64,000 nt of DNA. Origin: Mytilinidion resinicola (taxonomy: Eukaryota > Ascomycota > Dothideomycetes > Mytilinidiales > Mytilinidiaceae). The position numbers and the translations under genes are program-made. The notes under the pieces are model-generated. The model saw nothing but the letters and a program-made list of their open reading frames with translations. It did no database searches and had not been told where the DNA came from. Shown in pieces: positions 29,266 to 55,258 of the stretch; position 1 is the stretch's first letter; the number at the start of each line of letters is the position of its first letter. The stretch spans positions 880,718 through 944,717 of the forward strand of contig NW_022985439.1 in assembly GCF_010093595.1 (NCBI RefSeq), in the 5' to 3' direction.

Positions 29266-30936
29266 ATGAAAACTTCATCGCTTTAGGTTCTTTTCTTACA
29301 TTATGGTTTCTCATTCGCCTACAAAGCCGTGGTTTACACCGGCCTCGCTGCCTACTGCGAGGATGGTTTAACAACGAACAGCTCATGCTGGGACGCCGCA
29401 GGCTGGCTTCTAGGGAACGCCTCCCTTGGGTTCAGCAGCACCCAATTCCTGAGCCACTCTCAGCTGCTTGCGGCCGATCTCAGCGGAGTTGATCTCTATC
29501 TGCAGCCCGGTGGAGGCGGTAAGTGCTACTCCGCGCTTCAACACCATCTTACTAAACATGTCAACAGACAACACAACTGACTACGCCGACGTCTAGGCCG
29601 ACATGCAATCCCTGAGCACCAAAATCAGCCCCTACGTCCGCGCCGGCGGCAGATATCTCGGCATCTGCCAGGGCGGCTACCTCGCGGGTAACTTCAGCGA
29701 CACCGCCGCAACCATGGGCTTCAACGTGTTTCCTAGCGGTATCTTAGTCGACGAGGAGTGGATCCAGAATGGGACGCAGCGGCCGACGGAGGCCGACACG
29801 ACTATCGAAATCGACTACACGCTGGCGAATGGCACGCTGCTGACTGGGCAGTGGCAGTTCTTCCAGGATGGGCTGACCTTGCTGGATAATTCGGCGAGTG
29901 GGTGTAGCAAGGACTTGCAGGTTGTCGGGCAGTATACGACGGACTAGAATATTGCGGTTGGGTTGATGGCTTTTGGGAGCGGAGTTTTGGGGTTAGCCGG
30001 GCCGCATATTGAGGCGGATGCTTCCTCTTGTGAGTTATTCCATTGATAAGATTGGAGTGTTCTACAGGCCGAGAGGTATATTGCTGACTTTGCGAAGAGA
30101 CGGAAGACTCTTTCCCCAATCCCAACAACCCTACCGATCCGACGGACGGCTACCTCATCGGGTTAGATTTCCTCAAGCAACTCATGACTGCCACTCCGAA
30201 CACGATCGCGCAGAACGCAGCCGCGGGATGCGAATCTGATGTCGGAGGAGTTGTCACTGGTGTCGCCGCTGGCGAAACACCTTCACAAACCCCTTCCTCG
30301 GCCCCTGGAAACACAGCCCACGAGGACGTGTTGAACATCAATGAAATCATCATTACGATCGATGATGATGAATACGATGGCGATTACGACTGCGAATATC
30401 AGAAGAAATACGGGCCCAAGCATTATCATTGGGATGACGACTCCGAGATGCCCATAGACAAAGGTATTTTTCCTCGTGGTAGAAGACTAGAGAAGCGTGA
30501 AGCGTGTGCCGAAGGAGGATGCGGCCACAAACACCACTCGAAATGGATCTGGCACCACAAGGCGACTTCGACATCAACTTCAACCACATCTTGGTCTTCA
30601 TCCTCATCTTCATCTTCATCTGCGCCCGTTGACTTTCCGCTCTATACTTGGAGCTTTCCCGGAAAACGAGCCATTGCAGTCGCTACGCCGGCTCCTAAAG
30701 TTGCTCGCGGCGAAGGATTCGAGGAACGCGAGCCATGCCCGAAGGATGGATGCGGGCATCAGCATCATTCGAAGTGGATTTGGCATCACAAGTCTTCTGT
30801 AACGACTTCGACGACCTCGCCCTCGAGCTCGTCTTCGTCTTCTTTTTCTTCGTCTTCGATTGACTTCCCGCCTTATACGTGGAGCTTTGCTGCGAGAGGA
30901 TCGGCTGCTACGCCAGCTCCTGGGATGATGTATTAG
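29266..30936 (+). pseudogene. secreted BPL_N/GATase1-like protein gene interrupted by in-frame TAG codons
   Basis: Resembles fungal secreted proteins with a biotin-protein-ligase N-terminal (BPL_N, glutamine-amidotransferase-like) domain. Proposed exons: 29266-29518, 29568-30029, 30098-30936, all in one continuous frame of about 517 codons. Domain evidence is AVVYTGLAAYCED, VDLYLQPGGG, AGGRYLGICQGGYLAG (cysteine of the nucleophile elbow), GQWQFFQDG, GSGVLGLAGPHIEADASS and DGYLIGLDFL. TAG occurs in frame at 29284-29286, 29594-29596 and 29945-29947, and across the second splice junction (T at 30029 plus AG at 30098). No TAA, TGA or frameshift interrupts the frame. The tail has two repeats (about 30494-30660 and 30724-30888) of GCGH-x-HHSKWIWHHK, a Ser-rich run, then DFP-x-YTWSF, with a Kex2-like EKR site ahead of the first. 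It is a pseudogene unless the stops are recoded, edited or missequenced. Confidence 0.6.
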
Positions 30937-31089: not shown

Positions 31090-32487
31090 CTAGTCCAAGT
31101 CGCTTGAGATCTTCGGCAGTAAATCCTCAGTGAGCCGCCACAGAAGTGACGAGTCATACGCGTGGAACGCAGCTCCAGTGTAAAACGTCTGCTTCTGTCC
31201 TTGCAGCGCGTATAGCTTCGAGTAGAATCCAGACTTGATGGCGTCGGCGGGCACCGTAAGCTGGAATGGTGTGTGCGAGGTAAATGCTACGAACTGAGGT
31301 TCGTCCGCTTCCGTGACATTAGCGATGCCAGTGGTCTTTAATCGGCGTATAGACGCGAGGATGTCCGATTTGACAGCCTCGATTGGTTGAGGGGAGGCAC
31401 TGCCGTATTCCACCTGGTAGATCCCAGTACCTCCAGTAGGGACAATCTGGTAGACGGCCGGGAGGGTGGGCAGGTCGTAAGGATTATTGCTGTCTGTGTT
31501 TAGAACTGCTGTATCGGCTGGAAGCCCGGTATTCTGGACGAGAGATGTGTAATAGCCGACCGACCGGAACTGGCCAAAGAGGGCCTTCTCCGAAGAACCA
31601 AGATCGAATCCATCCAGGTTAGATAGTAGAGGTGGGATTGTCACGACTAGCTTCTTCGCTCGTATGACCTTCAGACCCTGTGGGGACTGAATCTTGATCT
31701 CGATTAAACCGTCAGCATCCGCAGTCCTGTTCGTCGAGACCACGTGACTCTGGAGCAAGACGTTCTGGCCTAGCACTCTGGCGGCCTTGTCGTAGATCTC
31801 GGAGTTATTCTGGCTCTTGGTGTCTATGAATCCGTTGAATAGGTTGTAGATGGCGTTGACTCCGAAGTATTTCATCACGTAAAGGGTCGGCTGATGCAGG
31901 ATATCCCCGTAGCTGCGATAGACCACGTGGATAACACCACTAACATTGTACTTCTCGATGAACTGACCAAATGACATCAGAAGGTCTTCCGGAACTGGTT
32001 CGGGAAGATAATAGCCATGTTCCAATTCCGGGTATTTGGCGGCCACTTTGCCATATCGCGTCAGCGCATCGAGAGCATTTGGAGATGTATAGTTCAGCAC
32101 TCTCTGGCCGGTCTCCAGGTTCGCCCGCACAGTAGTGCCTTCTGTAGATTCTAAAGGACCATACGCGACATCGAGGCGTTTGAAAAAACTCTCCACCACG
32201 GAGATGTTTGAACGGTAGTCTGCTACCCCGTAGTCGATTGGGATATCACCGTCCGGATCGGTGTATGTATTTACCATTCCTCCAAGTGAGTTGTCTCGCT
32301 CGACTACTATAACGTTATACCCCAGATCCTGCAATCGCACGGCTGCGTAGGTGCCTGAGGCACCACCTCCGATGATGCACACATCACGGGTTATTGCTTC
32401 ATGTCTGGATGATTGTGAACAAGTCGTGTCGATTGCGAAAAAGGTGGTTATGATGGCATAATATAGCCAGGATGTTGACCGACCCAT
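31090..32487 (-). CDS. secreted FAD-dependent oxidoreductase (beta-cyclopiazonate-dehydrogenase-like family)
   Basis: Single-exon flavoprotein of 465 residues. The frame is open from 32595, but the ATG at 32487 gives a proper signal peptide (MGRSTSWLYYAIITTFFAI), so I choose it. The dinucleotide-binding motif CIIGGGASGTYAAVRL begins near residue 37, followed by NVIVVERDNSLGGMVNTY, the FAD-ribose acidic residue and the amine-oxidase-like GG motif. The end, TFYTGAAFHAYDSSLLW, fits the C-terminal FAD-binding region of the NAD(P)-binding/amine-oxidoreductase fold. Several N-x-S/T sites agree with secretion. Homologues are often named beta-cyclopiazonate dehydrogenase, but no cyclopiazonate genes lie here. 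It is divergent from the UstYa gene with 645 bp between them, so shared control and a role as a peptide-tailoring oxidase are inferred. Confidence 0.8.
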   Translation of the reverse strand: MGRSTSWLYYAIITTFFAIDTTCSQSSRHEAITRDVCIIGGGASGTYAAVRLQDLGYNVIVVERDNSLGGMVNTYTDPDGDIPIDYGVADYRSNISVVESFFKRLDVAYGPLESTEGTTVRANLETGQRVLNYTSPNALDALTRYGKVAAKYPELEHGYYLPEPVPEDLLMSFGQFIEKYNVSGVIHVVYRSYGDILHQPTLYVMKYFGVNAIYNLFNGFIDTKSQNNSEIYDKAARVLGQNVLLQSHVVSTNRTADADGLIEIKIQSPQGLKVIRAKKLVVTIPPLLSNLDGFDLGSSEKALFGQFRSVGYYTSLVQNTGLPADTAVLNTDSNNPYDLPTLPAVYQIVPTGGTGIYQVEYGSASPQPIEAVKSDILASIRRLKTTGIANVTEADEPQFVAFTSHTPFQLTVPADAIKSGFYSKLYALQGQKQTFYTGAAFHAYDSSLLWRLTEDLLPKISSDLD

Positions 32488-33132
32488 GAGTGTGGGACCT
32501 GGCTGGCTTGAGAATCTTTGCGGTGTTTCGACGGGCCGGATTGTACTTGCGGTATTTTCGAAAGGGTGATGTCCGCTGCGAGGTAGAGAGAACAAAGAGA
32601 TGGGATACTATACAACCAATGCTCAGGTTTGTGTCCTTATATACTCAATTCCGATTGGTTACCCACAAGTAGATATAAGAATTTAGGGCTGACCGGAATT
32701 TGCCATTGTTGGGTACCCACCTTAAAGTACAGTTCCATGTCCATGTATACGTAGTACCCTCCTCTCATATTTACCAGGATACGGCTGGGTACCTTACGCG
32801 ATACCGACGACGTATCCCTTGTAGATGCAGAAGCAAAATCCTCCTGCGGACATCGTTTAACTTCCATGTTTGGAGGCGATCGTCGCCGGCTCCGCGGATC
32901 AAAGCAGATCCGAAGCCATTGCTCATATGAGGTTGCAGTTGGGTCCTATAATCTATTATTGCCTCAGACCGGGTTAGTCGTTGCAAGACTTGTGGAGACA
33001 TGAAATGCGCCTCGCCTGACTTGTTCCGACTTAGTCCAACCTCACCAAAAGTGACCCCTACAACATTGCCGTCGTTGTGTCCGTTGTGATACCTTTCCTT
33101 CATATCTCCAGAGATCTTTCGACGCTTGATGA
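32488..33132. promoter_or_regulatory. divergent promoter between FAD oxidoreductase and UstYa gene
   Basis: A 645-bp head-to-head intergenic region. No specific operator is identified; the arrangement itself suggests joint regulation. Confidence 0.45.
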
Positions 33133-34125
33133 ATGTCAAGGCACGCCATGTTTACTCAAGATCAGCGTCTATCCACTGATCTTTCTCTCCATGACAAGCA
33201 ACTAGAAAGTGAACCTTTCATCGGTCACAAGTCTACCGAAATCGAAGACGCGCAGTCACCAGCAACGTCCAAAAAACGACTATGGGTTAGTCTTATTATA
33301 GTCGTACAATGGATCATCCTTGGAGTCTCTTTCTTTTTCAATGCCGTCCTGTGGTTCGGTCCAATTGATCGAGCTTCTGTAGTGTATTGTAGGTGTCCGG
33401 CGGCCAGCGGAGTTTGGCCGTAATGCTGATACAAGACGTAGCACCTGTTCATGATGCGATTCGATTTCATGATGTCGTTTACGCATCTGGATTCCGCTCT
33501 CAAGTCACTAAGTTCCAAGGCCCACCTACTGTAGAGGTTGAACAAGCATGGGAAGAGCTGTATCCATGTATGTTACGGAGCAATGCTTGTGCGAGTCTAG
33601 AGAGCGCAGAATACTCACTACATGTAGCTACGATGACTCGAGTATCTGCAGCAGAAGCGGCAAAACTTGCAAATAAGACGGTTCGTATACCCGATGACCC
33701 GGAAAACTATCTGGTCTCAATAGACGTTTTCCATCAGATGCATTGTCTGGTATGTATTCACTTGATTACCTTGCCTTCGTTGATATATTGCATCCGGCTA
33801 ATTCGCTCTGAGCTAGAATATAATCCGCAAAAAGGTGTGGGGAGTTGTTCCTGACACATACGTGGAGGAGAAAATGCTAGAGCTCGAACATGTCGACCAT
33901 TGTGTGGACAGCATCCGGCAAAGCCTAATGTGTTCGGGAGATGTAACCCCCTTGCCATGGAAATGGGGAAAGAATGAGACTGATGGGACTGACCTGCTGC
34001 ATCCTGAGGCACACGTTGTCCATACCTGTCTCGACTGGAACTTGCTTATTCATTGGGCTGAGGACCGAAAGATCGTTAACTTGACGCGCGACAAGAAGCC
34101 GGTAGAAGAAGAATCAAAAAAATAA
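33133..34125 (+). CDS. UstYa-family (DUF3328) oxidase-like membrane protein
   Basis: About 292 residues in exons 33133-33388, 33436-33749 and 33817-34125. The intron donors are GTAGGT and GTATGT; both joins restore conserved sequence. A cytosolic N-terminus is followed by one membrane segment (WVSLIIVVQWIILGVSFFF, about residues 54-72) and then a lumenal domain. The two diagnostic H-x-x-H-C motifs are present: DVFHQMHCL and LEHVDHCVDSIRQ. Other family blocks are QGPPTVEVEQAWEELYP and HTCLDWNLLIHWAEDR. UstYa proteins catalyse oxidative cyclisation or hydroxylation in fungal ribosomal peptide pathways (ustiloxin, phomopsin, asperipin; cyclochlorotine for non-ribosomal peptides). The repeat-peptide gene 1.06 kb downstream on the same strand makes it the likely substrate; that link is inferred. 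Confidence 0.9.
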
Positions 34126-35188
34126 ATCTTTAAATAGTCAATACAGTGCCTTGCCATAGATATCCGTACACTTTCCTGTCACTTTCTGTGGGGCTTCAAC
34201 GCACTAATAGAAACTGGGGGCAGCAAATACACTTCCAATTTGTATACACCCTGTTGACACTGTCTGAGTTAGCCTCACAAGATTATTAGTTGTCCAAAAT
34301 ACCGAACCTCTCTCTCATTTAGAATGCTGAAAATACTATGAGGCTCTTCACGCAGCGGTAATCGGGTGTAGGGATTCCAATGATGAGGCATTGTACAACA
34401 TGAGAGCTGCACTCTCCAGGCCCCCGGCACGTGCTCCACAAGCTTTGTATAAGCAAAGCTTGGCTTACACCAGTAGGGACTGTGGAATCGGGGAATACAC
34501 GTTTCGGAAGTCGGTTCGTCCCGGCACCCGTGCATGAGAACAAAGCCCCCATTCAATACGAAGAACTATGATGCAATGGTCCCTATAGAATGTCAGCTCA
34601 ATCCGTTTTGTGGGGATTATTTCAGTCCGCAATATGTAATATGGATGGCGTCCTCCGAGCGATTCCGAAGTATTACGAGGGATCGACATGGATATTAATC
34701 AATTCGATTCCTAAACGAGCGTGAGTCTTCTAGCAAGGATCGGCAAGTTGCCGACATATCAACCCCCGAGCAGCGAGATGAAAATCTTTCCCCTTTAGCG
34801 TTGGTTCTGAGAAAGCTTGAGGATCGTAATGCTTGCTAAACATATCCTGAGTGAATTGTTGCTTCGCAAGTCTGTAAGACAACCGGGAAGCCTGAGCGGG
34901 TCCAAGTCGATGGATACGAAACGGTGTTGCCGGATGTACGATTTGGCCGACACCTACATAGTCTTGTCAGCACGTCAAGTGGGGCACGCATTGGGATACC
35001 ATTAACAGCTCTGTCTTCGTAAGTGTGATGTGACGCGCGGGGTATCTGTATCCAGATCCGGACCCTGCTCAGAGGCTGCCCATAGCTGTAGTGGTATAAA
35101 GACCTAAAGACCGACAGCACTGAAACTCCTGGTCATCATCGCAGACAGTCTTCCGAAGCTCTTCTCCTCCTCAAAGAATCTTGACAAA
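34126..35188. other. intergenic DNA with peptide-precursor promoter
   Basis: No other coding signal. The right end is the promoter of the repeat-peptide gene. Confidence 0.5.
35095..35100 (+). promoter_or_regulatory. TATA box of repeat-peptide gene
   Basis: TATAAA lies 88 nt upstream of the ATG at 35189, a normal spacing for a strongly regulated fungal gene. Confidence 0.5.
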
Positions 35189-35745
35189 ATGAGGTGCAGC
35201 ATACTCGCCATCTCGCTCCTGGTTGCCTCAGTCGTAGCTATTCCTCTACAGCTTAGTGAAAGGGTACGTGTTCCTCAGACAGTATCTATTAAACATCATG
35301 GGAAACTGAAATTATGCAGAATGCACTCTCAGAGCGTAGCCCCGAGGAGGCCTCCGAAGATCTTGCTTTCTGGCAGTCCGGCGATTGGAAACGCGAGGCC
35401 GACAAGAAGGCCAAACGAAACGCAGAAGAAGCTTCTGAAGACCTCGCGTTTTGGCAATCTGGAAGCTGGAAACGTGCCGCAGAAGAAAGCGCAAAACGAA
35501 ATGCGGAGGAGGCCTCCGAAGATCTGGCGTTCTGGCAATCCGGGGACTGGAAACGTGATGCGGATAAGAAGGTGAAGCGAAGCGCTGAAGAGGCCAAGGA
35601 GGATCTTTCTTTCTGGGCATCCGGGGATTGGAAGCGTGATGCTAAAGAGAAGGCAAAGCGGCATGCAAAGGAGGCTTCGGAAGATCTTGCTTTTTGGCAA
35701 TCCGGAGATTGGAAGAAGCGGAAAGAGATGAAGCAAGCAGTGTAG
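35189..35745 (+). CDS. candidate Kex2-processed RiPP precursor, five 27-residue repeats
   Basis: Secreted peptide precursor of 166 residues. Exons: 35189-35263 (signal peptide, MRCSILAISLLVASVVAIPL) and 35320-35745, with a 56-nt phase-0 intron. After NALSER come five tandem 27-residue units, each 81 nt: 35338-35418, 35419-35499, 35500-35580, 35581-35661, 35662-35742. Each unit is a 17-mer of type xAEEASEDLAFWQSGDW, then KR (KK in the last), a charged six-residue spacer such as EADKKA, and another KR. Unit 4 is the most divergent (LSFWASGDW), and unit 2 ends GSW. Kex2 cleavage after KR and basic trimming would release several near-identical peptides ending in Trp. This matches dikaritin and epichloecyclin precursors, and a UstYa gene lies beside it. 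I do not recognise the FWQSGDW core. Product and bioactivity are unknown. Confidence 0.85.
35338..35742 (+). repeat. five 81-bp coding tandem repeats of the peptide precursor
   Basis: In-frame 81-bp units encoding the Lys-Arg-bounded peptides. Copies 1, 2, 3 and 5 are closest; copy 4 has the most changes. The repetition also holds the antisense frames open, which are shadows. Confidence 0.95.
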
Positions 35746-40551: not shown

Positions 40552-42144
40552 TCATAAATGACCTGCAAAGCCCATTGGGGGGCGAAGCTTCCGGTAGACC
40601 ATATGGGCAACTCGACGTCCCATTCGGCAACTCATTTCCATAGAACTCAGCAATTCATCTGATAATCCCGTATAGAATACGCCATTTGCGAGCTCGACGT
40701 TGTCCAGTTGAGGGCCCCTGGTATGCTTGGGAGAAGCTAGGGGCCAGACTTGACGATCAATCCATTTGACTCCTGATGATTGCAATGAGCTGTCCGGAGA
40801 GTTTCCGAGCATCTGCAAAATCATCGAGTCTGGAATAGGCCCTGATGATATGATTTTGTAGATATTTATCTGCTCTATCATGTCGCCGGAAAAACCATCG
40901 GAGGTGTCATAATGCTCTACTGTGAAAATGTCGGTTTCGTTGGAGATTCGTGACCCTGAGGTTGTGAAGATCAAGTCCGGTATCTCGTTTGCGATAGTGA
41001 GGTTGAAAAAGCTCGGTGCAAGCCGAATTTCCTGTCGAGTGCTGAAATGTGTGACATGTCTCTCAACGAAGTCGGGAAGAGATTTGGGTAGGAGTGGTGC
41101 CGGGAAATCAAATTCTATGCCGGCTCCTTGCAAGTGTGTTGCAATGACTACGGCGTCGTATTCATCGTTTTCTTTCGTCCCTAAGGTTGCAAGCGGATCG
41201 GTGACTGACACTACCATAGTATATTTTCCGTTGCTCGATCTGCTGATCATAGAGACATGCGTATTCAGCAGTGTTCGTGCTTCTGACAGCCGAATAAGTC
41301 GGGACACAAGCTCCAAGTTCCCTCTCGGCTCGCTTTCAAGTCGATACGTTGCTGTGGGATTCATTGCTATGAGAGCGGACACTGCATTGAGATCGCTCAG
41401 GTTGTGCGCAAATAAAGCTCGGACAGTAGGTTGAATTATGTTGTGTATGATCTCCGGCGGTATCCCGTTCCCCATCAAATATTCGTCGGCAGGTCGTCTG
41501 CTCTCTTCCTCCAGGCCAAGTCGCCGAATGGCATCGGGGAGATTTGGATTCGGATCTTGATTGTTGCTGTACAGACTGTGAAAGAGCGGAAGCTTGTCAC
41601 GAATGAACTTCTGTAGCTTCCGCGCTGAGAGTCCGTACTTAAGTATATCTCGAGCGTACTCTAACTGAGTCCGTGACTTGAGATCTCGATCTCGACGTAG
41701 GACGAAAGTTTGGCCATCCCAAACACCGGCTGTAGGCTGCTGATATGACGGCACTCCTTCGACGACTTCTCGTCGCATTCCTGCGTCATCGATCGCAGTC
41801 TGCAAGCACCAGTCGTCGGCGGAGAATGTGCTTGCACCAGTGTCGACAAAGCCCCCGTATGTGTAGGCTAGATTGTCGACGAGAGTCGAGTTTACGCGGC
41901 CGCCGACCCGAGCAGCTACCTCGTAGATGGTAAGGTCCATAGGTTGGAGGTAGCCATAATCGGCATACAGTGAGTAGGCCAACGACGCTGCAGCGATACC
42001 TCCCCCGACAATCGCTATTCTTTTGCGCCCGTCCTGCCGGGTTTGATCTTCGGTGCTGTGCAGGTCTATGGGACTCTGAGCCACGTCCCTGGCTATGACC
42101 GTCGCGGCGAAAAGACTGAAAGAAAATGCGAGAGGAAGTTTCAT
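40552..42144 (-). CDS. secreted prenylcysteine-oxidase-like flavoprotein (copy A)
   Basis: Intronless, about 530 residues. The ATG at 42144 begins a good signal peptide (MKLPLAFSFSLFAATVIA); an in-frame upstream ATG at 42222 would bury it. The FAD-binding motif is IAIVGGGIAAASLAYSL, followed by TIYEVAARVGGRVNST. The C-terminal half carries the prenylcysteine-oxidase-like VERHVTHFSTR and the end block VFYTGLSDELLSSMEMSCRMG. Family enzymes oxidise the thioether of farnesyl- or geranylgeranyl-cysteine, releasing cysteine and an aldehyde. Sequence is well diverged from copy B at 53.4-55.3 kb, which has introns, so this copy may have a specialised role, possibly in the neighbouring peptide cluster (speculation). 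Confidence 0.82.
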   Translation of the reverse strand: MKLPLAFSFSLFAATVIARDVAQSPIDLHSTEDQTRQDGRKRIAIVGGGIAAASLAYSLYADYGYLQPMDLTIYEVAARVGGRVNSTLVDNLAYTYGGFVDTGASTFSADDWCLQTAIDDAGMRREVVEGVPSYQQPTAGVWDGQTFVLRRDRDLKSRTQLEYARDILKYGLSARKLQKFIRDKLPLFHSLYSNNQDPNPNLPDAIRRLGLEEESRRPADEYLMGNGIPPEIIHNIIQPTVRALFAHNLSDLNAVSALIAMNPTATYRLESEPRGNLELVSRLIRLSEARTLLNTHVSMISRSSNGKYTMVVSVTDPLATLGTKENDEYDAVVIATHLQGAGIEFDFPAPLLPKSLPDFVERHVTHFSTRQEIRLAPSFFNLTIANEIPDLIFTTSGSRISNETDIFTVEHYDTSDGFSGDMIEQINIYKIISSGPIPDSMILQMLGNSPDSSLQSSGVKWIDRQVWPLASPKHTRGPQLDNVELANGVFYTGLSDELLSSMEMSCRMGRRVAHMVYRKLRPPMGFAGHL

Positions 42145-42575
42145 GATGACGGAGTAGAACAAAAGAGCTATAGAGCAATCTTGGTGGAGCTGAAGGGGTG
42201 AGTCTGTCCAAGTTCTGGACACCTACTGTGCCGCCTCTTGTCTGTGCCGCCTGCGCCTCCCGATTGTTCCACTAGAATATGAACCCAGCCCCGGTCTCAG
42301 ATCCATCAAGCCGGTTCAATTAAACTAGGTGGGGCTGGTTGGTAGTGAATGCTCAACTTGAAACGAGAAGGAAGGGGCACGAGGGCACGAAGGGATGGCC
42401 GGATAAGCGCCAAGACTGAAGCCTGTGAATTCTTTGCCCGACCCTCTGTGTTCACGTGACCCGGCGCCGCCGCTATGGCTGTGTCCCAACTCAGCTTCCC
42501 GAATTCACACATAAGATCTACTTTTATGTGCCCGTTAAATAAGGCTATTATAATATATAAACTTATAAGATAATT

Positions 42576-53399: not shown

Positions 53400-55258
53400 T
53401 CACAAGTCTTGCCCCTCCTCAACCGCCTTCTCCTTCTCCCTCTCCTTACTCGCCTCTAGAATAGCCTGAATCTTAGCCGGTCCGCCCTTGGGTTTCGGCA
53501 TTGGCTTTCCTTCTACTTTCTTCTCTCCATTGGCCTCGGCCTTCGCCCATGCATCCACAATCAGCCCAGCAACGTTCTTCCCCATCAGAGCACTCGTCTC
53601 CATCGTGCTGATGAATGACTCTATCCCACTCGTATACCACAGCCCCTCATCGAGCTTAATCTCCTCAAAAGTGACGCGCGGGTACTCATATGGATAGCTG
53701 TCCCACTCCTTTCTGTATATCCAGCTTACAAAGCCTTGGCCCAGCTCCTCGACTTCCTGGTCAGGTGGGGCAGTGCCGAGGATATGCGACAAAAAGGTTG
53801 AGTTGATGCGAGCGGGGCTGAAGATCTTGTAGATGTATTCTGGAGCACCGGTGGTGGGGTTCCAAGATTCGGCAACATTGCTGATGCTAAAGAAGCCGGG
53901 TTTGCCAACACCGTTGGGATCGGTGCCAACAGATTCGTCAGGTGGGAGAGTAGTGAGGATAAAAGTGGGAACAATGGCACTTGGTGCCAGGTTGAAGGCC
54001 TTAGGACTGAGGGTGAGTGGAGATGCGAAGAGGGTCACGTGGAGGCGAACATAAGGGATGGTGTCCGGAGTGTGTTCTGGCTCGGGAGAGAACTTGATGC
54101 TAGAGAATTGATAGGGGGTGGCGAGGACGATGTCGTCAAACGTTTCTCCGGCGTTTGAGGCTTCCTCATTTGAGACAGATGCGGACTTCAGGATGTAGGT
54201 GCCGTCGGCTTGCTTCGAGATGGTTTGGACGGTAGTGTTCAATCGTACGTCCGCTTTCGAGGCTTGGACCATGTTATCGAAGATCTGCCAGTTACCGCCC
54301 TCCACAGCCATAGCGCCATCGGTGGCCATACAGACCATGGTCTCCAAGCCGTGTATGAGAGGAAGGTTCTGAGCATAGTTGACTCGAGTGCTTTACGGTA
54401 TCAGCTATCAATCTGTCACACACATGACTTCCCGAGGCCCATACGCAGACATACCTTGCCTGAATAACCTCGTCCGCAAACTTCACCCCAATCCCATTCT
54501 CCTTCAGGTACTGTTCTCCCGTGCTAGCCGTGACAGGCGCCAACCCCACATCATACACCGCGTCCGTGAGCGACGCAAATGGGAACTGTGGTTCCTCGTA
54601 CAACTTCAAAAACTTCCCCACCGTCGACTTCATAAGCCTGTTCGTCTTGATAGGCGCTAGCCCGTACCGCCACAATAGCTTCGCGATGTCCCACCACCCA
54701 TTGTGCGCTGGTGTCTGCAACACAAATTCGTCTCCGTTCCAGATGCCCAACTCGGGGCTATCTGCTGTGCGCAACGAGTCCTTGTTATCGATGGACAGGT
54801 TGAAATTGTTGACAGCATCAACAAGAATGCTGTTCACAGATACGAATATAGAGGCGCCGAGCTCGATGGGGACGTTGGGGGCGTCCCAGGCGTAGACGGT
54901 GGTGGAACGGCCCCCCACATAGGGAGAGCGTTCGAAGACGGTGATGTCGACGTCGAGGTTGCGTTCGAGGGCGTTTTGTCGTAAATGGTATGCTGCAGAT
55001 GCTCCGCCAGCTCCGGCACCTGTCTTGGAGTCAATTCAGAGCTCGACGGGTGACGCGGGGGTCTCGGAGGTGCTATGAGGCTCCCGAGCTAACAGGCTGG
55101 GTCCAAGGAACAGAATGGAGCTTACCGATGACCGCTACCTTCTTTGAGCCTGTACGAAGGCCCTCGAGTTTCTGTGAGGCTCCATCGTGGTTGTGAAGAG
55201 CATTAGAGAATGAGAGCCCGCAAGCCAACGTCAGCAGAGTGGTTCGAAGCAACGACAT
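53400..55258 (-). CDS. secreted prenylcysteine oxidase/lyase (copy B)
   Basis: Flavoprotein of about 562 residues. Exons: 55258-55126, 55019-54455, 54390-53400; introns 106 and 64 nt. The signal peptide is MSLLRTTLLTLACGLSFSNA. The FAD motif is formed across intron 1 as VAVIGAGAGGASAAYHLRQ, followed by ITVFERSPYVGGRSTTVY and ELGASIFVSVN. The mid-region ENGIGVKFADEVIQASTRVN is split by intron 2, and LIHGLETMVCMA follows. The end block is GLWYTSGIESFISTMETSAL. These are the hallmarks of prenylcysteine lyase, which degrades prenylcysteines released by turnover of prenylated proteins. The C-terminal tail is charged (KEREKEKAVEEGQDL). This copy looks like the conserved housekeeping version, whereas copy A is intronless and diverged. 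Confidence 0.9.

Follow-up and report, generated by a model that had tools for sequence, protein, structure and literature searches.

A Tyr-free Kex2-repeat precursor, a UstYa oxidase and a CpaO-type flavoprotein: a probable small RiPP cluster in Mytilinidion resinicola

Can a secreted repeat protein devoid of Tyr be the substrate of the UstYa/DUF3328 oxidase encoded beside it? This question is raised by a locus of the dothideomycete Mytilinidion resinicola, located at 31.1-35.7 kb of a 64,000-nucleotide stretch (contig NW_022985439.1, positions 880,718 to 944,717, forward strand), hereafter the window. An initial annotation had proposed a dikaritin-type cluster for a ribosomally synthesised and post-translationally modified peptide (RiPP), and its layout is supported, with a Kex2-type repeat precursor beside a UstYa gene, as in the ustiloxin, asperipin and phomopsin clusters. 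Our analysis leads us to regard the locus as probably a small fungal RiPP cluster laid out like those of ustiloxin and asperipin and giving a UstYa-modified peptide.

The precursor gene and the region preceding it are organised as follows.

34126 to 35188, unstranded: stretch upstream of the precursor gene, with TATAAA at 35095
35189 to 35263, plus strand: precursor exon 1, signal peptide, ATG at 35189
35264 to 35319, plus strand: precursor intron, 56 bp, GT-AG (GTACGT...TGCAG)
35320 to 35745, plus strand: precursor exon 2, five repeats, stop codon at 35743-35745
35338 to 35388, plus strand: 17-mer 1, SPEEASEDLAFWQSGDW, SER before, KR after
35419 to 35469, plus strand: 17-mer 2, NAEEASEDLAFWQSGSW, KR site on each side
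35500 to 35550, plus strand: 17-mer 3, NAEEASEDLAFWQSGDW, KR site on each side
35581 to 35631, plus strand: 17-mer 4, SAEEAKEDLSFWASGDW, KR site on each side
35662 to 35712, plus strand: 17-mer 5, HAKEASEDLAFWQSGDW, KR before, KKR after

This two-exon gene, whose splice sites were deduced from the frame, the GT-AG rule and a family alignment, codes for a protein of 166 residues; the 143-residue open reading frame (ORF) at 35314 in the program-made list is the same precursor without its signal-peptide exon. As annotated, a signal peptide, recognised by eye in the start MRCSILAISLLVASVVAIPL, precedes the repeats, which are 17-mers of the type xAEEASEDLAFWQSGDW beginning at residues 32, 59, 86, 113 and 140. 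The array has a tandem repeat score of 402 and is not due to chance. Five 27-residue units bounded by Lys-Arg had been described; there are indeed five 17-mers, mostly KR-bounded, but only four full 27-mer units, the fifth being a 17-mer without spacer that ends in KKRKEMKQAV, and SER rather than KR precedes the first. The protein thus has the features of a Kex2-processed repeat protein (KEP), namely a signal peptide and at least three similar repeats split by KR, RR or KK, the signal peptide being judged by eye.

Ten positions are invariant in all five 17-mers (E4, A5, E7, D8, L9, F11, W12, S14, G15 and W17), whereas positions 1-3, 6, 10, 13 and 16 vary, A10, Q13 and D16 with one change each across the copies. 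The 166 residues include 10 Trp and 5 Phe, but no Tyr. Most synonymous sites differ among the five units, with an uncorrected proportion of synonymous differences (pS) of 0.89. The ratio of nonsynonymous to synonymous proportions (pN/pS, Nei-Gojobori) amounts to 0.13 for the 17-mer and 0.09 for EDLAFWQSGDW when all five units are compared, and to 0.13 and 0.10, respectively, in units 1-4. The spacers of units 1-4 give 0.35, or 0.56 if unit 5 with its dissimilar tail is included. Since the 17-mer was held while synonymous sites diverged, selection appears to act on the repeat peptide itself. The computed [M+H]+ values of the five 17-mers are 1953.814, 1954.809, 1926.814, 1927.834 and 1976.877, with 1769.729 for EEASEDLAFWQSGDW and 925.384 for FWQSGDW.

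The two enzyme genes lie upstream and diverge from each other.

33133 to 34125, plus strand: UstYa/DUF3328 oxidase (PF11807), 270 residues, four exons at 33133-33388, 33442-33567, 33628-33749 and 33817-34125
32488 to 33132, unstranded: 645-bp region separating the divergently oriented UstYa and flavoprotein genes, with TATATA and CCAAT boxes
31090 to 32487, minus strand: secreted-looking flavin adenine dinucleotide (FAD) oxidoreductase resembling CpaO (beta-cyclopiazonate dehydrogenase), with one exon coding for 465 residues

The same-strand DUF3328 protein announced 1.06 kb upstream of the precursor was recovered, at a distance of 1064 (1063 bases between the genes), so that a KEP gene and a DUF3328 gene stand side by side. 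It matches PF11807 with an E value of 1.1e-44 over profile positions 3-220 of 220, and carries both HxxHC motifs, HQMHC at residues 163-167 and HVDHC at 193-197, whose His and Cys are invariant in six aligned sequences, as well as one hydrophobic helix at about residues 50-75 (by eye). NCBIfam gave no match for this protein, and a profile search of the PDB none at E≤0.1. An AlphaFold2 model of its Claussenomyces relative (P0002), computed from six sequences only, is poor, with a mean predicted local distance difference test score (pLDDT) of 51 and a predicted template modelling score (pTM) of 0.28.

With regard to the flavoprotein, the predicted divergent secreted FAD oxidoreductase is borne out by matches to PF13450 (E 7.7e-12) and PF01593 (E 2.9e-7), the FAD-binding motif GGGASGTYAA, and an N-terminus, MGRSTSWLYYAIITTFFAIDTTCS, that resembles a signal peptide by eye. 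We placed its ATG at 32487, which gives the 465 residues of the Lophium orthologue, instead of the TTG at 32595 of the ORF list. Its top solved relatives, PDB 9kp8 and 9vex, are both beta-cyclopiazonate dehydrogenase (E 2.5e-78), aligned with 266.9 bits over residues 69-502 of the 505-residue frame, or about 430 residues; among the 25 of 65 NCBIfam matches listed, all are below the cutoff. The family is broad: of 7999 proteins scored, 702 reach E≤0.001, and bacteria appear among the best 120 of the 702. By homology, the protein is a relative of CpaO, an FAD-dependent monoamine oxidase involved in ring closure on Trp-derived beta-cyclopiazonic acid (PMC10890092). The substrate of CpaO is, however, a small prenylated tetramic acid.

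The UstYa and flavoprotein genes appear to have been kept together in evolution. Among six matches, the closest UstYa relatives come from Lophium mytilinum, with 92% identity over 67%, and from Claussenomyces sp. TS43310, whose M1818_001751 shows 62% over 96%. These two fungi also supply the best named relatives among the top 120 of the 702 flavoprotein matches, the Lophium orthologue with 87% and Claussenomyces M1818_001750 with 72%. The Claussenomyces genes bear consecutive tags and lie on one contig of 929,239 bases, in a record labelled as a metagenome-assembled genome, in which mixed contigs are possible; both Lophium genes are listed on a contig of 2,850,822 bases, taken as one contig because the lengths are equal. 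A tree was computed from the window flavoprotein and 61 sequences hand-picked from the 120 listed matches, leaving out the window fragment P0009; in it, the window, Lophium and Claussenomyces proteins form one clade with support 98/89, Aspergillus wentii coming next. M. resinicola is probably related to Lophium. On this comparative evidence, the pairing is kept in Dothideomycetes (Lophium) and Leotiomycetes (Claussenomyces), and the linking of the FAD enzyme to the cluster in the initial annotation holds, in that this CpaO-like protein belongs with UstYa. Among the matches listed, the next closest flavoprotein is A. wentii MW887_000848 (P0010), which shares 61% over 87% and falls within this supported clade. 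The M. resinicola genome has two further flavoprotein homologues (contigs C14 and C6), on contigs without a UstYa match.

How common such gene pairs are in this genome bears on the relation of UstYa to the precursor. At least 32 PF11807 matches, grouped by eye, define 20 loci. Among the 19 outside the window, examined over 9.9 kb each (8.5 kb for one), four carry a Kex2-repeat ORF, or five of 20 with the window. Two of them pass the strict finder with three copies (L013, repeat EDALEFAGAQYSHLY; L015, repeat TFGYYGSYRPYASYGSY); the other two pass the looser criterion only, with two copies, and have five (L012, type NFEADAMLAVARxxESSYA) and three (L016, repeat TAYKALAENPTQVASDDEVNLLAARIGY) on reading. 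All four ORFs contain Tyr and are divergent from the UstYa gene, at 1.0-2.0 kb; the L015 repeats are very Tyr-rich (GYYGSYRPYASYGSYR). Neither 95 shuffled loci nor nine real stretches at a distance from the window's UstYa (61.6 kb) yielded a KEP, and the finder does recover the alpha-pheromone gene of the genome (L034). We dropped from the count a row of two Arg-rich short pieces (L011), a spurious row which indicates that the looser finder can give false positives, and the out-of-frame shadows at L013 6586-7158 and window 35108-35572.

What might the enzymes do to the peptide? The precursor would enter the secretory pathway, where the lumenal two-copper site of UstYa would oxidise the conserved F-W-x-S-G-x-W end; DUF3328 enzymes are described as dicopper, O2-dependent, lumenal and dimeric (PMC12435403). 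As Tyr is absent from the precursor, any aromatic link would have to involve Phe and Trp, and would most likely join Phe C-beta to a Trp indole. The flavoprotein would carry out a further oxidation in the Trp/aromatic region, Kex2 would cleave after Lys-Arg, a carboxypeptidase would then strip KR, and trimming of the acidic N-terminal part (xAEEASEDLA) would release a modified peptide ending in Trp. We infer all these chemical steps by analogy, and likewise the co-expression of the precursor, UstYa and flavoprotein genes. That the product contains a Trp cross-link as such is a tentative idea that we would sooner expect to fail than to hold. More doubtful again is the full proposal of a Tyr-free RiPP in which the DUF3328 dicopper enzyme makes a Phe-to-Trp or Trp-to-Trp link and a dedicated CpaO-family flavoprotein either oxidises that indole region as well or supplies the copper site with electrons, as a two-oxidase module of Dothideomycetes and Leotiomycetes. 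The authors of the CctR study hypothesised an accessory protein supplying electrons or Cu(I) (PMC12435403), and the pair of UstYa with a CpaO-type protein offers a candidate accessory oxidase.

The Trp question matters because the DUF3328 cyclisations described in the literature consulted proceed through Tyr, the residue named as cyclised or linked for ustiloxin, phomopsin, asperipin and epichloecyclin. A natural Tyr-free precursor with invariant Trp and Phe, from a genome with four Tyr-type pairs, is a clean test for Trp linking by this copper family. Plant BURP cyclases link Trp. In the CC0, CC BY and CC BY-SA literature, which misses most subscription papers, we found neither a DUF3328 product linked through Trp nor a UstYa protein with a conserved CpaO-type partner.

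Several observations weigh against a cluster acting on this precursor. Tyr in the core, a feature used to define dikaritins, is absent. In the survey of Umemura (2020), the Tyr rate was 65.6% in KEPs with DUF3328 and 38.2% in those without, while that of Trp was 20.5% and 24.5%, respectively (PMC7329392). Trp is thus not enriched near DUF3328, whereas Tyr is. The exact core FWQSGDW and the use of Trp and Phe in place of Tyr, both proposed in the initial annotation, are putative. The window pair is in tandem, whereas the four other pairs are divergent. The two intergenic regions have 16, 4, 1 and 0 words of 8, 9, 10 and 11 bases in common, compared with means of 21.0, 5.5, 1.2 and 0.3 in 100 Markov shuffles. 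Finally, a search with the precursor found no relative at E≤0.01 among 3648 word-sharing candidates of 0.55-1.75 times the 166-residue length, a weak negative, as the window's own precursor was likewise missed. A fragment of the window's flavoprotein (P0009, on a contig of 2,943,684 bases), on the other hand, is among the flavoprotein matches, and KEP genes are evidently poorly represented in what was searched. A second copy was not found in the genome at E≤1, the two matches being the window's own exons.

Some of these points favour the best-surviving alternative, in which the precursor yields unmodified linear secreted peptides, acting as signals or effectors, and UstYa and the flavoprotein form an independent module for another substrate. 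We consider it unlikely, though it deserves to be taken seriously. Orthologues of both enzymes occur in Claussenomyces and Lophium with no precursor relative detected, so the pair may serve another substrate, and this explanation would gain if both fungi lack the precursor. It also agrees with the tandem layout and with the 6120 of 7878 KEPs that have no DUF3328 gene within 15 genes (PMC7329392). However, the place directly next to a KEP gene is where DUF3328 most often sits (PMC7329392), a Kex2-repeat ORF is present at four of the 19 other UstYa loci, and the precursor search would probably have missed true relatives too. If linear peptides were the only product, the precursor would be one more secreted KEP.

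Somewhat less probable still is that UstYa modifies the peptide by C-H hydroxylation, halogenation or desaturation without any cross-link, a sub-case of the favoured cluster, with which its probability overlaps. DUF3328 proteins are implicated in hydroxylation, halogenation and isomerisation as well as cyclisation (PMC12435403), the dehydroamino acids of phomopsin are made by UstYa proteins according to the title of a work cited in this literature, and the Tyr needed for the known ether link is lacking. On the other hand, two Trp and one Phe are invariant in all five copies, and the Gly-containing end resembles the cross-linked FYYTGY by eye.

Mere chance neighbourhood of three unrelated genes, to which the tandem layout and the absence of promoter words in common beyond shuffles would lend themselves, is very improbable in view of the consecutive UstYa and flavoprotein tags in Claussenomyces and of the clean KEP controls, shuffled and real. 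That the repeat protein is a sexual alpha-pheromone precursor, which it recalls by its signal peptide, its Kex2 repeats and the KR-[EDA]A sites after the peptide, can be practically dismissed, because its core is unrelated, with nothing like CxxPGQxC in the window precursor, and the genome's own alpha-pheromone gene lies elsewhere (C9:1360651-1361780, 13 of 24 pattern matches, CHLPGQSC type, KR-EAEP-like spacers), on a contig without a UstYa match in the PF11807 profile search. This identity was accordingly ruled out. The alpha-pheromone gene (L034-L041) shows two spacer styles, KTWGCHLPGQSC and DPYCHLPGQSC.

Beyond the three genes, the Pfam scan covered 20 sequences, namely the precursor, UstYa, the flavoprotein and 17 other ORFs at 21.1-54.4 kb, out of the 92 in the window's ORF list. 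The 17 neighbours include no tyrosinase, methyltransferase, P450, S41 peptidase or transporter by Pfam, though multi-exon genes could escape. At about 29330-30936 (plus strand), with roughly 150 bp between its end and that of the flavoprotein gene, lies a gene matching BPL_N (biotin-protein-ligase N-terminal). It has an apparent Ser-rich tail with two units of about 70 residues (R-E[AP]C..GCGH[KQ]HHSKWIWHHK ... DFP.YTWSF), KR or ER preceding each. Umemura describes di-His repeat types beside DUF3328 genes (PMC7329392). A secreted-looking protein encoded 2.3 kb downstream of the precursor, from 38012 to about 39366 (minus strand), carries a HELTH motif, its main ORF matching an M35 zincin below threshold (PF14521, E 0.0074); it may be a processing protease. 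Two prenylcysteine-lyase-type flavoprotein ORFs (PF07156) occur about 11 kb apart on the minus strand, at 40552-42222 (E 7.8e-37) and 53400-54392 (E 2.5e-66).

Compared with known systems, the locus is closest in layout to small clusters such as that of asperipin-2a. Umemura found DUF3328 within 15 genes of 1758 of 7878 KEPs (22%), most often in the adjacent position, and near almost no pheromone gene; 2560 KEPs stand alone, and type P-3, a Trp type described as "W accompanied by P", has four of its seven members near DUF3328 (PMC7329392). These figures place a stand-alone Trp-type pair within the surveyed kind, and leave Trp unsupported as a preferred DUF3328 target. The P-3 repeats, also obtained by gene mining, contain Trp like ours, but the predicted window core has no Pro and is set apart by this description. 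The XSDW motif reported among KEPs of Basidiomycota by Le Marquer (2019) (PMC6339444) bears a faint likeness, by eye, to the SGDW of this core. The claim that the cluster is undescribed is based on the absence of the string FWQSG from the open-licence literature and on the precursor search that also missed the window's own precursor; Trp-type KEPs near DUF3328 had already been surveyed.

Nine dikaritin clusters were named in Venturia inaequalis by the same association of a KEP and DUF3328 (PMC9632046). The present locus, having the layout but not the Tyr, is at most a variant of this known kind. Victorin arises from a Kex2-type repeat precursor whose core is Tyr-free and unrelated to that of the window, so that the present locus would not be the only member without Tyr, and a requirement for Tyr may be too strict. 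Victorin has been termed a dikaritin (PMC9632046). With the ustiloxin and phomopsin clusters, the locus shares the signal peptide, the KR-separated repeats and the adjoining DUF3328 gene; it differs from them in lacking Tyr, in having one DUF3328 gene instead of two to five, and in that no tyrosinase, methyltransferase or S41 peptidase was found among the scanned neighbours. The asperipin-2a cluster of Aspergillus flavus (aprA, aprY, aprR and aprT) likewise combines a Kex2-repeat precursor, a single DUF3328 gene and few tailoring genes (PMC6514808), and its core, FYYTGY, closed by a Tyr-O to Phe-C-beta ether (PMC12186524), is a short aromatic stretch with Thr/Ser-Gly, as is FWQSGDW. Here, however, Trp replaces Tyr, the predicted core is one residue longer, a CpaO-type flavoprotein takes the place of the isoflavone-reductase-like AprR, and a transporter was not found among the 17 neighbours. 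Beyond the initial annotation, the analysis adds the CpaO kinship of the flavoprotein, its conserved pairing with UstYa, the four Tyr-bearing pairs of the same genome, and an alpha-pheromone gene placed elsewhere.

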